Positions 21,252-63,666 of a DNA stretch of 64,000 bases are shown here, piece by piece. The notes beneath the pieces were generated by a model that was not told the DNA's origin, did not search any database, and worked only from the letters and a program-made list of their open reading frames with translations. Position numbers and translations under genes: made by a program. Positions within the stretch are counted from its first letter, which is position 1, and each line of letters opens with the position of its first letter. The DNA comes from Desulfuromonadales bacterium (GTDB lineage Bacteria; Desulfobacterota; Desulfuromonadia; Desulfuromonadales; BM103), in NCBI GenBank assembly GCA_027065695.1, contig JAMONP010000052.1, positions 1 to 64,000 of the forward strand, written 5' to 3'.

Positions 21252-21281
21252 TTGACATGAGCGTGCCATAAGTGGCACAAT
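21252..21281 (+). promoter_or_regulatory. Candidate sigma-70 promoter of the hydrogenase-like sigma-54 regulator gene
   Basis: TTGACA at 21252–21257 and CACAAT at 21276–21281 are 18 bp apart, about 30 bases before the start codon at 21310. The spacer is almost filled by the 16-bp palindrome at 21263–21278, so a protein bound there would block polymerase. Confidence 0.6.
21263..21278. promoter_or_regulatory. Operator palindrome GTGCCATAAGTGGCAC (site O1)
   Basis: Perfect GTGCCA/TGGCAC inverted repeat with a 4-base centre. It lies between the -35 and -10 of the regulator's presumed promoter. The same palindrome recurs at 23623 and 23688 upstream of the sigma-54 promoter, so it is most likely the binding site of the regulator's Fis-type HTH, here acting in self-repression. 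Confidence 0.72.
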
Positions 21282-21309: not shown

Positions 21310-23580
21310 ATGGGTCCGGTTATCACCGTCAAGGAAAATTGTCGCAAATGTTACGCTTGTGTTCGTAATTGCCCTGTCAATGCAATCCGCGTTCATCGTA
21401 ATTATGCCGAGGTCATCAGTGACCGCTGCATCGGTTGCGGCAATTGCGTTAATAGCTGTTCGCAAAAAGCCAAAGTTATTGCCGATCATATCGACGAATG
21501 CAAACAGCTACTTGCCACCGACACCCCGCCGATAGCCATCCTCGGTTGTTCACATCCGGCCTTTTTCAACGATATTCGTTCTGGACAACTGGTCACCGGC
21601 CTGCGTCGACTCGGTTTTGCTGAAGTCCACGAGGGTGTCGCTGGAGTCGATCTGATCCGGGAAAGCTACCACCAAAAACTGGAGCAGGATCAACCCTACC
21701 CCCTGATAACAACTCATTGCCCGACGATTATCGATCTAATCGAAAAACATTACCCACAATTACTCAAAAACATGACCGGCACTGTCTCACCAATGGTGGC
21801 CATTGGGCGCTTTATCAAGAGTCGCACCACAAGCGAAACCCCGATTGTCTACATCAGTTCCTGCATTGCTGGCAAGGCTGAGATTACTGCCAAACAAAGC
21901 GCAGGCGCTATCGATTGCGTCATTTCTTACCTGGAATTGAGCCAGATGATCAAGGAGCGCAAACTTGATCTGCAGCGACTGGGCGAAACTGCTTTTGACG
22001 GCATGCAACCTAAGCATGGGCGCCTTTTTGCAATCTCTGGTGGACCATTAAACTCATTTGATATTGCCAACAAAATCACCAATCATGATTATGTGGAAAC
22101 TGAAGGCGAAGAGAACTCGATGGAAGTAATCGTGGACCTTGCAGCTGGTCGAATCTCACCTAAAGTGGTTGACCTTCGCTTCTGCAATGGCGGTTGTATT
22201 GGCGGCCCGGGTAAGAATAACCGCCTGACCACCTTCTCTAAACGCAACCTGATTATCAAACACCACCAGGACCAGGATCTTTATTATCGAACCAAGTCGA
22301 CCTACCTTGATGACAAACCATGGCCTGATGTAACCAGAACCTTCTCCAACAAATACGAACGACCGAAAACCCCCAGTAACGAGCGTTTGCATCAAATTCT
22401 TCAGGCAACTGATAAATATGAAACTGAAGACGAGCTAAACTGCGGCGCTTGCGGCTACACAACTTGTCGTGAGCACGCTGTTGCTGTGTACCGCGAACTG
22501 GCTGAACGCGACATGTGCCTCCCCTATTCCCTGAAGCGCCTCAAAGAGGATCATGTCAAACTTACCCAGAAATACGAACTTGCCCAACGTGCCCTGAAAC
22601 AGGAATTTGGCGAAACATCCATTATTTGCAAGGATCAACGTACCAGAGAAGTCATCAGACTAATTCATCAGGTTGGTCCGACACCGACCACAGTATTGAT
22701 TCGCGGTGAAAGCGGTACGGGTAAAGAACTGACAGCCCGTGCCATCCATGCACAAAGCCAACGCTCAGACAAACCACTCGTCACCGTAAATTGTACAACC
22801 CTGACTGACAGCCTGCTTGAAAGCGAACTCTTCGGTCACAGGAAAGGAGCCTTCACGGGTGCAATCAGCGAAAAGCGCGGCATCTTCGAAGCAGCCAACG
22901 GTGGCACTATATTCCTCGATGAAATTGGTGACATTACACCTAAACTGCAGGCAGAGCTATTGCGCGTTCTAGACAGCGGAGAAATCAGACCGGTTGGCGG
23001 CGACACATCAACCAAGGTGGATGTACGCCTGATAGCAGCAACCAATCGCAATCTCGACCAGGGTGTAGCAGAAGGATGGTTTCGCGAAGACCTCTTTTAT
23101 CGACTGAATGTTTTTACCATCACCATGCCTCCATTGCGAAGTCGACTCGACTCACTAGATGAATTGATTCAAGCATTTATTGCCAAAGCCAGCACCCGGG
23201 TCAACAAGACCCTGTCCGGGATAGAGGAACGTGCGATTCAAGCCATGCGCCAATATCATTGGCCCGGCAATATACGTGAATTGCAGAACATCATCGAACG
23301 CGCGGCAGTATTAACGCACGACGAGATTATCCGACTGGAGAACCTGCCTGTTATCTTTGGTGAACTGGTCTTGCAGTCTCCAGACAAAGCGAGCCAGAAC
23401 AACTTGCGCAGTCAACGTCAGAAGCATGTTAACGAGGTTGAAAAAAACCTCTTAACACGATATTTACGTGAGGCTGAAGGAAATGTCTCCTCTGCGGCAC
23501 GCCTTGCCGAAATTCCGAGACGCACTTTTTACCGAATGCTTAATCGCAATGGACTTAACGGCGCAAATTTTAAAACATGA
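21310..23580 (+). CDS. Sigma-54-dependent regulator with ferredoxin and Fe-only-hydrogenase-like sensor, 756 aa
   Basis: Enhancer-binding protein with an unusual Fe-S sensor. Ferredoxin motifs: Cys11, 14, 17, 21 and Cys40, 43, 46, 50. A hydrogenase large-domain-like region spans about 75–320: THCPT (Cys137), SSCIAGK (Cys185) and [11 protein letters not shown] (Cys292, Cys296), the positions of the four ligands of the H-cluster cubane. The usual TSCCP motif reads TTHCP, so the proton-transfer cysteine is replaced. A further Fe-S domain has CGACGYTTC (Cys378, 381, 386) and Cys403. The AAA+ domain shows [14 protein letters not shown] (contacts sigma-54) and FLDEIGD, then a Fis-type HTH at about 715–748. 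SD AAGGAG precedes the ATG. It probably senses redox state, H2 or CO; this is inferred. Confidence 0.88.
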
Positions 23581-23622
23581 AACGGTTCTAAGGCAATTTT
23601 TGTCACCGTTCCCACGACTAGT

Positions 23623-23638
23623 GCGCCACGGATGGCAC
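23623..23638. promoter_or_regulatory. Upstream activator site UAS1, GCGCCACGGATGGCAC
   Basis: One mismatch from the GTGCCA-N4-TGGCAC palindrome. Its centre is about 187 bp before the expected start of the sigma-54 transcript and 65 bp (about six helical turns) from UAS2, as expected for a pair of enhancer sites on one DNA face. Confidence 0.65.
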
Positions 23639-23687
23639 AGTCATTTCGCCTAAGATTGGCGAGTTTCCCCCTTTCAGGCTGCTTACC

Positions 23688-23703
23688 GTGCCATACGTGG
23701 CAC
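23688..23703. promoter_or_regulatory. Upstream activator site UAS2, GTGCCATACGTGGCAC
   Basis: Perfect GTGCCA/TGGCAC palindrome with a 4-base centre, centred about 122 bp before the expected sigma-54 transcription start. It matches the operator at 21263 in 14 of 16 positions or better. Confidence 0.72.
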
Positions 23704-23791
23704 AGTCTGCATCAAGACCAGCCAACCAACAAACACCAAGGAAACCAATGATAACAACCAGTTAAAGCTATCTACAGCCAACGAACAATCC

Positions 23792-23806
23792 TGGCACAGT
23801 AATTGC
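23792..23806 (+). promoter_or_regulatory. Sigma-54 (-24/-12) promoter
   Basis: TGGCACAGTAATTGC fits the sigma-54 consensus: TGGCAC and TTGC with GG and GC exactly 10 bases apart. Transcription should start about 12 bases after the GC, near 23818. Two palindromic activator sites lie upstream, and the neighbouring gene encodes a sigma-54 activator. No ORF starts before the terminator at 23875–23914. Confidence 0.82.
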
Positions 23807-23817
23807 TGCGGTTAGCT

Positions 23818-23914
23818 AGGCAACTGTCTAGGGATATCAGTATTCCACACAAAGGATTTCTGTTCCCTTGTTTGCGCCGCCACGGGACCTCTCTCCCCCG
23901 GGCGGCGTTTTTTT
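23818..23914 (+). ncRNA. Candidate sigma-54-driven small RNA, about 97 nt
   Basis: The interval from the expected start of the sigma-54 promoter to the T-run of a strong terminator has no ORF of note but clear hairpins. Hairpin 1 is GGGATA-TCAG-TATTCC at 23831–23846. A weaker AAGG/CCTT stem lies at about 23852–23870. Hairpin 3 is the terminator, with a 7-bp CGCCGCC/GGCGGCG stem, a bulged A, a 4-bp CGGG/CCCG extension and the open loop ACCTCTCTCC. A C/U-rich loop of this kind can pair with purine-rich ribosome binding sites. The 5' end is inferred from promoter spacing. Confidence 0.7.
23875..23914 (+). terminator. Intrinsic terminator of the small RNA
   Basis: CGCCGCC (23875–23881) pairs with GGCGGCG (23901–23907), extended by CGGG/CCCG, and seven T follow directly (23908–23914). 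It is a near-ideal rho-independent terminator. Confidence 0.88.
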
Positions 23915-23931
23915 GTTGAGTTAAGAGGAAC

Positions 23932-23961
23932 AAAAAAAGGGTTACGTATCTTGCGTACCCC
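23932..23961 (-). terminator. Hairpin with minus-strand T-run
   Basis: On the minus strand GGGGGTACG and CGTAACCC form a bulged stem followed by seven T. It would stop transcripts coming leftward from the tRNA-Ala side before they reach the small-RNA locus. Confidence 0.55.
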
Positions 23962-23969
23962 CTTTATAT

Positions 23970-23993
23970 CCAGGAGCCTGCACGACAATAAGG
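23970..23993 (+). repeat. Dispersed 24-bp repeat, diverged copy A
   Basis: CCAGGAGCCTGCACGACAATAAGG differs at three positions from the two identical copies at 53414 and 63940. It lies between the small-RNA locus and the 52-codon ORF, and like the 63940 copy is followed by a GCGAAG-type stretch. Confidence 0.7.
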
Positions 23994-24303: not shown

Positions 24304-24379
<76 letters not shown>

Positions 24380-61207: not shown

Positions 61208-63553
61208 CTAATACCCCAACTCCACCTCAGTAAGCATCTCACCAAGATATTCCCTAATTTGAACACCGCTATCCATCCTCTGTATCTCGGTGTAGTGTCG
61301 ACTGGCCATTTCCATTGAGACTCCCTTGAGAAACGCCTTGGTCCGGGGAATAAATGGTGCAGGCATGGAGAATTCTCGCAACCCCATACCGATCAGTAAC
61401 AGCAGGGTTAGTGGATCTGTGGCCATCTCGCCGCAGAGGCTGACACCTTTGCCCAACACTGTGGCGGTATGAGTTACTTCATAAATGACCTGCAAAACAG
61501 CAGGATGTAATGGGTCGTAATACTTGCTTACCAGAGGGTTGTTGCGGTCGGCAGCCAGCATATATTGAACCAGATCGTTGGTGCCAAGAGCAAAGAAATC
61601 GACTTCGTTGGCAAGCTGGGGTACCAGACGAACTGCAGCAGGAACCTCAATCATGACGCCAATGGGAACGTTCGTGGAGAATTTCAGGCCTTCCTTTTGC
61701 AGGTTCTTACGGGCCTCTTCAACCACCTCCAGGCAAGCACGTGTTTCATCCAGGCTGGAGATCATCGGGAAAAGCAGCTTAACCGGACCGTGCTGGCCGG
61801 CCATAAGGATTGCCTCGATCTGGGTACGGAAAATGTCACGGTTATCGAGGGACACCCGCACAGACCGCCAACCCATGAACGGGTTGTCTTCTTTGGGTGG
61901 GCTGAAATAGGGCAATACTTTGTCACCGCCGATATCCAGGGTGCGGATAGTAACAGGTTGTCCGTCAAACTCCTTGACCACCCGGCTATAGAGTTCATAT
62001 TGGTCGTTGCGGCCGGGAAAGTCACCGCGAGCCATGTATGGGAACTCGGTCCGGTAAAGGCCAACACCTTCGGCACCGAAGCGCTTGGCCACGTTGATGT
62101 CGCTGATCAGACCGATATTGGCGCGCAGGATGATGCGTTCACCGTCAGAAGTCGTCGCCTGTTGGTCACGGTACTTCTCCAGGCGACAGAGTTCACGTGT
62201 CTGGTCCAGTTGCAGTCGCTGGTACTCATCCTTGACCGTATCCAGGGGTTTGATGTAAATACGCCCGGTGTTGGCATCTGCAATCAGGTTGTCTTCTGGA
62301 GCAATGTGCTTGAGAGCCCCCCGTACGGCGACGATTGCAGGAATACCCATCGATTTCGCCATAATGATGGCATGAGCATTCTTCTCACCACTTTCGGTGA
62401 TGATACCGAGAATCTGTTCGGTATCAAGTGTGGCCATGTCCGAGGGTAAAATCTGCCGCGCCACCAGAATACTTGGATGCTTCAGGCGCAAGTTCTGTTC
62501 CGAAGCATCACCGACCAGATTGGCGAGGATACGACGGCCGATATCCTCCATGTCCGTGGCGCGCTCCCTGAGGTAAGGATCATCCATCTTATGGAAGGCT
62601 TCTATATAGTTGGCAACGATTTTCTCCAGGGCGTAAGCAGCGCTGTGACCTTTGTTGATTTCGTCCTGAAGCTTTTTGATAAAACTGCGGTCTTCAAGAA
62701 TCATCAGGTGCGTATGGAAGATTGCAGCATCGCTCTCGCTAAGGCGCTCCGCAACGCGTTTTTCAAGAAAGATTGTCTGGATACAGGTCTTCTCCAGGGC
62801 ACTTTCAAGATTCTTCAGTTCGGCTCCTGTGTCCACTTGTTCTTCGTGAAGAATATCGGCAAAACCAAGGCGCTCTTCAAGAATCGCTGCAGGTCCAATA
62901 GCAACCCCCGGATAAGCAACTTTGCCGGTGAGAACTGCCTGTGGAGAGGTCTCGATTGATTCTTCAGCACCTGTCAAAAATTGCTGTGCTTGGGCAAGCT
63001 CTTGGGTGACGCGTTGGCTCTCTTTCTGGTGCAGGTGGATAGAGTCGAGCAGACGAGCGTTGATGACAATTGAAGTGATCTGAAAGGCAATTGTCGACAG
63101 GGCGCTGATTTCTTCTTTACTGAACTTCCGGGAGTCTTTGGTCTGCAGAACAATGACACCAAGTGGGTTGTTGCGTTCAAAGAGAGGTATCCCCAGGAAT
63201 GAATGAAAACGTTCCTCACCGGTCTCCTTAAAATAACGGTAGCTGGGGTGATCCTGGGGTTCCTCAATAGCTATTGCATGGCGCTTTTGTGCGGCCATCC
63301 CGGTGAGTCCCTCGCCTATACGCAAGGTAACCTTACCAACAGCTTTGCGGGACAGGCCTTTGGAGGCTTGCAAGCGCAAGGTTTCACTGTCGGGATCCAG
63401 GAGATAAATTGAGCAGACATCTGTGTGCATCCGCTTTGCTACAAGGGTCACAATGTTACGCAGGGTATCGTCGAGATCGTGCGACTGCAGAATCAGTGCA
63501 CTGATATCCTCGAGAGTGGTAATGCCTATTTTTGAGTTTGGCTTGCGTGGCAT
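61208..63553 (-). CDS. ptsP: PTS enzyme I-like PtsP (EI-Ntr) with GAF domain, 781 aa
   Basis: Nitrogen-PTS phosphotransferase that uses PEP to phosphorylate NPr-type partners. An N-terminal GAF domain (about residues 10–160) begins with KIGITTLEDISALILQSHDL. The EI N-terminal helical domain is followed by the phosphohistidine region GEKNAHAIIMAKSMGIPA, where the His is kept but the usual TSH reads NAH. The PEP-binding barrel has RTDIGGDK-like RTLDIGGDKVLPY, RVSLDNRDIFRTQ and the late GTNDLVQYMLAADR and SLCGEMA. I chose the ATG at 63553 over a longer frame to 63622. No NPr gene is near. Confidence 0.9.
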   Translation of the reverse strand: MPRKPNSKIGITTLEDISALILQSHDLDDTLRNIVTLVAKRMHTDVCSIYLLDPDSETLRLQASKGLSRKAVGKVTLRIGEGLTGMAAQKRHAIAIEEPQDHPSYRYFKETGEERFHSFLGIPLFERNNPLGVIVLQTKDSRKFSKEEISALSTIAFQITSIVINARLLDSIHLHQKESQRVTQELAQAQQFLTGAEESIETSPQAVLTGKVAYPGVAIGPAAILEERLGFADILHEEQVDTGAELKNLESALEKTCIQTIFLEKRVAERLSESDAAIFHTHLMILEDRSFIKKLQDEINKGHSAAYALEKIVANYIEAFHKMDDPYLRERATDMEDIGRRILANLVGDASEQNLRLKHPSILVARQILPSDMATLDTEQILGIITESGEKNAHAIIMAKSMGIPAIVAVRGALKHIAPEDNLIADANTGRIYIKPLDTVKDEYQRLQLDQTRELCRLEKYRDQQATTSDGERIILRANIGLISDINVAKRFGAEGVGLYRTEFPYMARGDFPGRNDQYELYSRVVKEFDGQPVTIRTLDIGGDKVLPYFSPPKEDNPFMGWRSVRVSLDNRDIFRTQIEAILMAGQHGPVKLLFPMISSLDETRACLEVVEEARKNLQKEGLKFSTNVPIGVMIEVPAAVRLVPQLANEVDFFALGTNDLVQYMLAADRNNPLVSKYYDPLHPAVLQVIYEVTHTATVLGKGVSLCGEMATDPLTLLLLIGMGLREFSMPAPFIPRTKAFLKGVSMEMASRHYTEIQRMDSGVQIREYLGEMLTEVELGY

Positions 63554-63666
63554 GAGATCGTCAGGGTTAGTAATTAGTTGTTGATTAGTATGATAGCGGA
63601 CGCTAATCATTTTGGCGAACAAAAAAACGCCAGCATGTTGTCCTTTTAACTATGTCCTCTTAACTC

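Follow-up and report, generated by a model that had tools for sequence, protein, structure and literature searches.

Organization of the locus

The window, by which we mean the whole 64,000-nucleotide stretch of DNA analyzed here, carries on its plus strand a small RNA gene of approximately 97 nt (positions 23818 to 23914) downstream of a gene for a sigma54 enhancer-binding protein of 756 amino acids (21310 to 23580, plus strand), hereafter referred to as the activator. Between them lies a sigma54 promoter, TGGCAC-N5-TTGC (23792 to 23806, plus strand), with the −24 element TGGCAC at 23792 to 23797, the −12 element TTGC at 23803 to 23806 and a GG-to-GC spacing of 10, which corresponds to the canonical sigma54 −24/−12 element. 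The 5′ end of the RNA is placed at 23818 because this position is 12 nt past the −12 element, and the 3′ end coincides with the T-run at 23914. Both boundaries agree with the roughly 97-nt RNA that a first-pass annotation of this DNA had predicted. A covariance model built from 35 RNA copies scores the window copy at 97.6 bits, a value to be read with the window copy itself being one of the 35. The RNA stretch occurs as a single copy in its genome and, by reading, has no ATG in its 97 nt.

The RNA ends in an intrinsic terminator hairpin with a U-tail (23874 to 23914, plus strand; the hairpin itself spans 23874 to 23908). Folded alone, this element has a z-score of −4.14 and is equaled by none of 200 shuffled sequences. 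Its 10-nt loop, ACCUCUCUCC at 23887 to 23896 (plus strand), is the proposed seed and is exactly the 10-base loop that had been assigned to the terminator before. A generic terminator scan, which takes loops of 3 to 8 nt, did not list the hairpin. The promoter is conserved together with the RNA: among the 82 loci aligned below, 75 have the strict sigma54 motif and 79 a relaxed version. Of the remaining three loci, L101 and L135 carry TGGCAY-N5-GTGC by reading, and L127 has no such element.

Two covarying hairpins

The fold of positions 23818 to 23916 has a free energy of −38.4 kcal/mol (z −3.5; 0/200 shuffles equal it) and comprises two main hairpins, besides which there is just a 4-bp stem at the 5′ end. 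The 5′ part folded alone is weaker than the terminator (z −1.80; 12/200 shuffles equal it). It forms an imperfect hairpin (23830 to 23868, plus strand), supported by the fold and by covariation, with an outer helix in which AGGGA (23830 to 23834) pairs with UCCCU (23864 to 23868) and the inner helices CAG/CUG and UCC/GGA.

Covariation was scored in an alignment of 82 copies to the model, 80 of them distinct; 11 weak matches from the order that lack the activator, matches from outside the order, duplicates and some strong matches from the order were left out. Over 23 pairs and 82 copies, 88.9% of the cells pair, and pairing drops to 48 to 65% in slid versions of the structure. Two-sided changes occur in 18 of the 23 pairs, compared with a mean of 12.9 in shuffled alignments, and involve 187 cells versus 56; neither value is reached in 500 shuffles, and while the alignment is biased towards the model, the compensations are visible by eye. 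For example, the lower stem of the terminator reads CGCCGCC/GGCGGCG, CGCCGTC/GACGGCG, CGCCATC/GATGGCG or CGCCGTAC/GTACGGCG depending on the lineage. The weakest helix is the middle one of the 5′ hairpin, which is 59% paired. Compensatory changes, proposed earlier as the check on the structure, are thus found in both hairpins. This is not the case for the GGGATA/TATTCC hairpin that had been drawn near the 5′ end: it is paired to 71.5% compared with 71.9% in shuffles, shows no excess of covariation and is replaced by the AGGGA/UCCCU pairing. Accordingly, the RNA and the terminator loop of the first-pass annotation stand and its 5′ hairpin does not; the activator, its likely sites and the sigma54 promoter had gone unmentioned.

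In 36 of the 82 copies a C-rich run is present in the 5′ hairpin as well, with CGTTCCCGCCCGAACGG common to 16. These 16 copies (e.g., L099, L120 and L132) share an identical CGTTC-CCGCCC-GAACG stem-loop, possibly a second C-rich seed.

The terminator loop is nearly invariant

The sequence CTCTCTCC is intact in 75 of the 82 copies, TCTCTCC in 79 and CTCTCC in 80. Each column of the loop core holds one base in 78 to 82 of the 82 rows; the first two bases of the loop are variable. Even so, the core can change, since six of the seven copies without an exact CTCTCTCC adjoin an activator gene; near-invariance is hence what became of the invariant loop that had been expected. The RNA searches themselves use the loop, and the search with the activator protein serves as an independent check. 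Because all 81 genomes with an activator at 51% or higher identity also match the RNA, loop-less versions are not hidden from view. The outer stem CGCCG/CGGCG is nearly as invariant as the loop. As both stems show compensatory changes and the loop is nearly invariant, a small RNA with a conserved seed in the terminator loop, as the first reading of the sequence had it, is well supported.

Distribution of the RNA

To our knowledge, small RNAs have hardly been described in the Desulfuromonadales, an order of anaerobes with important roles in metal reduction and syntrophy. A BLASTN search with positions 23580 to 23940 found a match in 39 of 58 genomes, the window's own included, and all 30 loci taken from these matches have the sigma54 element and the terminator. 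A pattern consisting of the loop and the 3′ stem matched 29 stretches among 84,980 genomes. All 29 are in records of Desulfuromonadales, Desulfuromonadaceae, Geobacteraceae, Deltaproteobacteria or genera belonging to this group, among them a Geoalkalibacter and Geothermobacter hydrogeniphilus HR-1, in which no activator was found next to the presence of the RNA. Of the 136 genomes searched in the order, 91 match the covariance model (G078, G095 and G112 doubtfully), and the matches cover 19 of the 21 families searched.

Outside the order, neither the phylum sample (297 genomes) nor the class sample (194 genomes) gave a convincing match. In the former, 12 genomes match the model: four belong to the same order and the other eight score 23.5 to 31.8 bits. 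Six of these eight (L091 to L096) were read and rejected, as they have no CTCTCTCC and no activator in their flanks. In the class sample 67 genomes match, two of them from outside the order, both with at most 37.6 bits. Within the order, 11 matches of 25 to 33 bits without an activator (L140, L141, L143, L145, L146, L147, L149 and L152 to L155) were dropped; L140, which has a similar loop, may be a relic. The weak matches in family f23 (L242 to L244) are not convincing as relatives. A genome of this family, which belongs to the same class, has at L243 and L244 (minus strand) hairpins with U-tails of the form GCGCCGTGA...TCCTCTCC...CACGGCGC, two of which, at L244, sit behind TGGCA-N6-TTGT-like elements; perhaps they represent a separate group of C/U-loop RNAs.

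At gathering score, Rfam 15 reports two tRNAs in the window and no match over the RNA, and there are no matches in 11 related loci. In the parts of the literature that were accessible, we found no description of this RNA or of a hydrogenase-like sigma54 activator, which does not prove their absence in print. What emerges is an RNA family that spans the order, has no Rfam match and is accompanied by a candidate activator together with candidate sites and a candidate promoter. Both the input and the targets of the RNA are therefore directly testable.

The upstream activator and its candidate sites

The activator has Pfam matches above cut-off to ferredoxin-type Fe-S domains, an [FeFe]-hydrogenase large-subunit-like domain (Fe_hyd_lg_C), a further Fe-S domain, the AAA+ domain of sigma54 activators and a Fis-type helix-turn-helix. 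Compared by sequence with solved structures, it matches [FeFe]-hydrogenases best. Sixteen cysteines are invariant in all 59 aligned activators (59 of 63, after removal of sequences of 650 amino acids or less): eight of the ferredoxin type, four of the hydrogenase type (residues 137, 185, 292 and 296) and four in the Fe-S domain.

An activator gene precedes the RNA on the same strand at 76 of the 82 loci, with 194 to 428 nt between its last matched residue and the RNA. Among the 136 genomes of the order, 81 have both the activator and the RNA, 10 have a match to the RNA only (three doubtful), 36 have neither and nine, of family f4, have only a distant activator homolog (27 to 43% identity). All 81 genomes in which the N-terminus of the activator is at least 51% identical carry an RNA match. 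No RNA was found behind the activator homologs of family f4 that were inspected (39 to 42% identity, L232 to L236). Six of the 82 loci have the RNA without the activator, and one of the six also lacks the sigma54 element.

Upstream of the RNA, the window has two palindromes, TGCGCCACGGATGGCACA at 23622 to 23639 and CGTGCCATACGTGGCACA at 23687 to 23704, each with one mismatch to TGTGYCA-N4-TGRCACA. With up to two mismatches, the palindrome is present upstream of the RNA in 77 of 82 regions, and at least two sites are found in 69 (the means for shuffled regions are 0.3 for one site and 0 for at least two). It occurs in 76 of 76 loci with a linked activator and is missing in five of the six without one, which are all the loci that lack it. 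A third palindrome, CGTGCCATAAGTGGCACA at 21262 to 21279, also with one mismatch, lies just before the activator gene and is likely an autoregulatory site; 51 of 54 activator 5′ flanks tested have the palindrome with up to two mismatches. Because TGTGYCA-N4-TGRCACA also resembles CRP-type sites, the palindrome is provisionally assigned to the activator by its position and by their joint loss.

The strict palindrome was found at 20 sites in 15 of 57 genomes, 16 of them at the RNA locus, compared with none for the reversed control. The window's own genome has no strict site, its sites carrying one mismatch each. Three of the four strict palindromes elsewhere are at loci without a strict sigma54 element. 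Two genomes, at L192 and L200 (position 1501), have a strict palindrome 130 to 220 nt before genes for apparently exported proteins with CxxCH heme-type motifs, and neither locus has a strict sigma54 element. These may possibly be further targets or sites of another regulator.

The RNA is probably made from its own sigma54 promoter and switched on by the upstream activator. The locus has both the promoter and the linked gene expected for a sigma54-dependent small RNA with a linked enhancer-binding protein; activation itself is a prediction from the sequence.

The signal

HydG is needed for building the H-cluster. It scores above cut-off in 15 of the 136 genomes (13 of the 14 genomes of family f4, G047 and G132), of which only G132 has the RNA. 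In the window's own genome no HydG was found, the best match reaching 196 bits compared with a cut-off of 312.15. As this genome lacks HydG, an H-cluster in the activator is unlikely, and sensing of Fe-S clusters, redox or iron is favored over sensing of H2. The activator thus probably responds to Fe-S clusters, redox state or iron and not to H2, which suggests re-use of a hydrogenase-derived domain for sensing in transcription control where HydG is missing from the genome. In family f4, HydG is present in 13 of 14 genomes, the activator homologs are 39 to 42% identical and an RNA match is absent; since HydG is there and the RNA match is not, the hydrogenase-like activator of this family may sense differently.

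Candidate mRNA targets

Hfq is encoded in 124 of the 136 genomes, including the window's own, which makes pairing between the RNA and mRNAs possible. The exact complement of the loop, GGGAGAGAGG, was rejected as a target signal: in 11 genomes it has 67 matches, nine of which are the RNA gene on its other strand, compared with 58 for the reversed control. The motif GGAGAGAGG-N4-10-ATG is in excess in 22 genomes (34 matches versus 18 for reversed controls). It was also discarded as a target signal, given that few of the 30 loci read open long frames; the one recurring site, GGAGAGAGGTTTCATG, is inside a coding sequence.

Pairing of the loop with 580 script-predicted starts (717 kb of the window's own genome) reaches −9 kcal/mol in 14.5% of cases, within the 6.0 to 20.5% obtained with 12 shuffled loops. 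The comparison with shuffled loops indicates that the loop is able to mask Shine-Dalgarno sites, an ability in which it does not surpass other C/U-rich loops. The best local candidate among these 580 genes is hemA (L255:17267-18580, minus strand), whose start carries GGAGAGAGG and could form nine contiguous pairs with the loop. The gene was detected in 127 of the 136 genomes, and 69 of its starts were read. The 9-nt match is present in 4 of 29 starts of a first set (4/20 within the window's family, 0/9 outside it) and in 0 of 40 of a second. With four of 69 orthologs keeping the match, including one from a genome that has no match to the RNA, hemA was rejected as a target across the order. Nor is there any conserved complementarity to the loop at the start of the activator's own gene among the 63 starts read, and autoregulation of the activator through the loop was dismissed on these grounds.

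The earlier proposal that the loop pairs with ribosome binding sites and controls many mRNAs drew no support from these comparisons, the pairing being within the range of shuffled loops and the hemA match not being conserved. Target prediction with the loop as seed, which had been recommended with it, yielded no conserved target, and the exact complement is not over-represented. The composition and the conservation of the loop, together with the precedents RepG and NfeR1 discussed below, nevertheless make pairing with start sites plausible by analogy.

Alternative explanations

The position of the RNA raises two alternatives in which it would not be a separate regulator. It might be a leader or attenuator of ptsP (EI-Ntr), in which case the sigma54 transcript would either stop at the terminator or continue into ptsP. 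By motif, the next gene within 480 nt is ptsP on the same strand at 62 of 82 loci, and in L045 ptsP is a little farther downstream. Of 29 loci inspected for the next long frame, two had too little sequence, and in the other 27 the frame is on the strand of the RNA. Against this stand yebC at 11 of the 82 loci and another gene at nine (L045 among them), and a promoter-like element of the TATCAT type that, by reading, separates the terminator from ptsP in many loci. Moreover, in the window ptsP is on the minus strand at 61208 to 63610, about 40 kb from the RNA, which is intact. Since an apparent inversion has moved ptsP away and left the RNA intact, a cis role for ptsP is not required, and we consider the leader explanation very unlikely. 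The element could, on the other hand, merely be the 3′ end of the activator mRNA with a conserved terminator, in agreement with its position 3′ of the activator at 76 of 82 loci. But the sigma54 promoter lies between the two, promoter and RNA are kept at five of the six loci without an activator, the 5′ hairpin covaries, and a plain terminator does not need a conserved loop sequence; it is extremely improbable that the RNA is nothing else.

Two further alternatives concern what the circuit senses and what the loop binds. An activator that uses a true H-cluster to sense H2, with the RNA as part of a hydrogen response, would fit the Fe_hyd_lg_C domain, the match to solved [FeFe]-hydrogenases and the four hydrogenase-type cysteines present in 59 of 59 activators. 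With HydG above cut-off in just 15 of 136 genomes, a single one of which has the RNA, and below it in the window's own genome, H2 sensing appears highly improbable. The RNA could also act as a decoy, the partner of its C/U loop being a protein or some other G-rich RNA instead of mRNA starts; the near-invariance of the outer stem CGCCG/CGGCG, comparable to that of the loop, and the lack of a conserved mRNA target among those searched for speak for it. Yet we see no known protein motif: GGA in a loop, the CsrA-type motif, is absent from the conserved loop here. In addition, the presence of Hfq in 124 of 136 genomes makes pairing with mRNAs possible. We therefore regard a decoy as unlikely.

The apparent inversion, of approximately 39.7 kb relative to related genomes, separates the RNA from ptsP and has at its ends the 12-base sequence GAGTTAAGAGGA in opposite orientation (23918 to 23929 and 63655 to 63666). 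On the minus strand, 23936 to 23972 forms a hairpin (z −2.33), and the T-run behind it would terminate transcription on that strand; the hairpin is located some 300 nt beyond a terminator-like site of the tRNA-Ala(GGC) gene (24304 to 24379).

A model for the circuit

We favor, with a probability of about 0.7, a trans-acting small RNA that is activated with sigma54 by the protein of the upstream gene and whose loop blocks mRNA start sites. In this model, the sensor module of the activator would descend from [FeFe]-hydrogenase and ferredoxin-type Fe-S domains, and its signal would probably be the state of Fe-S clusters, redox or iron and not H2. The activator would bind the two TGTGYCA-N4-TGRCACA palindromes approximately 114 to 196 bp upstream of the RNA start, as well as the third palindrome ahead of its own gene, and turn on the RNA from its own sigma54 promoter. 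The RNA would fold into the 5′ hairpin and the terminator with the 10-nt C/U loop as seed, and the loop, probably aided by Hfq, would pair with purine-rich translation initiation regions and lower translation. A bolder version, which we put forward tentatively and judge somewhat less probable than its opposite, is a circuit of nearly single purpose across the order: the one conserved output of the former [FeFe]-hydrogenase sensor, besides itself, would be an RNA whose nearly invariant terminator loop globally tunes the translation of mRNAs with purine-rich starts. If true, a redox protein would be wired directly to a general riboregulator.

Comparison with known small RNAs

The seeds of the Vibrio Qrr RNAs are located outside the terminator. 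With respect to control, these RNAs depend on sigma54 and on an enhancer-binding protein that acts from two upstream sites (PMC10162802), as would be the case for the sigma54 promoter, enhancer-binding protein and two candidate sites described here. They differ in their input, which in the same account is a LuxO/SypG phosphorelay (PMC10162802). As to gene order, a parallel is Pxr of Myxococcus, a 108-nt small RNA whose gene is downstream of the sigma54-dependent regulator gene nla19 and apparently behind a sigma54 promoter (PMC5568312). The likeness is one of description; the neighbor of Pxr is a response regulator and Pxr is predicted to form a triple stem-loop (same source).

Concerning the seed, RepG of Helicobacter pylori uses a C/U-rich terminator loop (PMC8295292), and the terminator loop is likewise C/U-rich and conserved here (CTCTCTCC in 75/82 copies, CTCTCC in 80/82). 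RepG, which belongs to a different phylum and is compared by description, has a G-repeat of the tlpB leader as its pairing partner, and the available part of that source does not mention a sigma54 activator (PMC8295292). In a permissive Rfam search, the best-scoring family over the RNA is NfeR1/alpha-r14 (RF02344), whose Rfam alignment shows C/U-rich anti-Shine-Dalgarno loops, one of them in the last hairpin. NfeR1 silences ntrB by blocking its start region; it differs in having three CCUCCUCCC loops and a length of 123 nt, in being Hfq-independent and in its control by LsrB/NtrC (PMC10746234). Membership was rejected because 17.3 bits (E 0.79) is below the gathering score of 58.8; the three CCUCCUCCC hairpins of alpha-r14 were also looked for, and the RNA has a single C/U loop, ACCUCUCUCC, and no CCUCCUCCC. 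By analogy, the RNA probably works like RepG, NfeR1 and Pxr.
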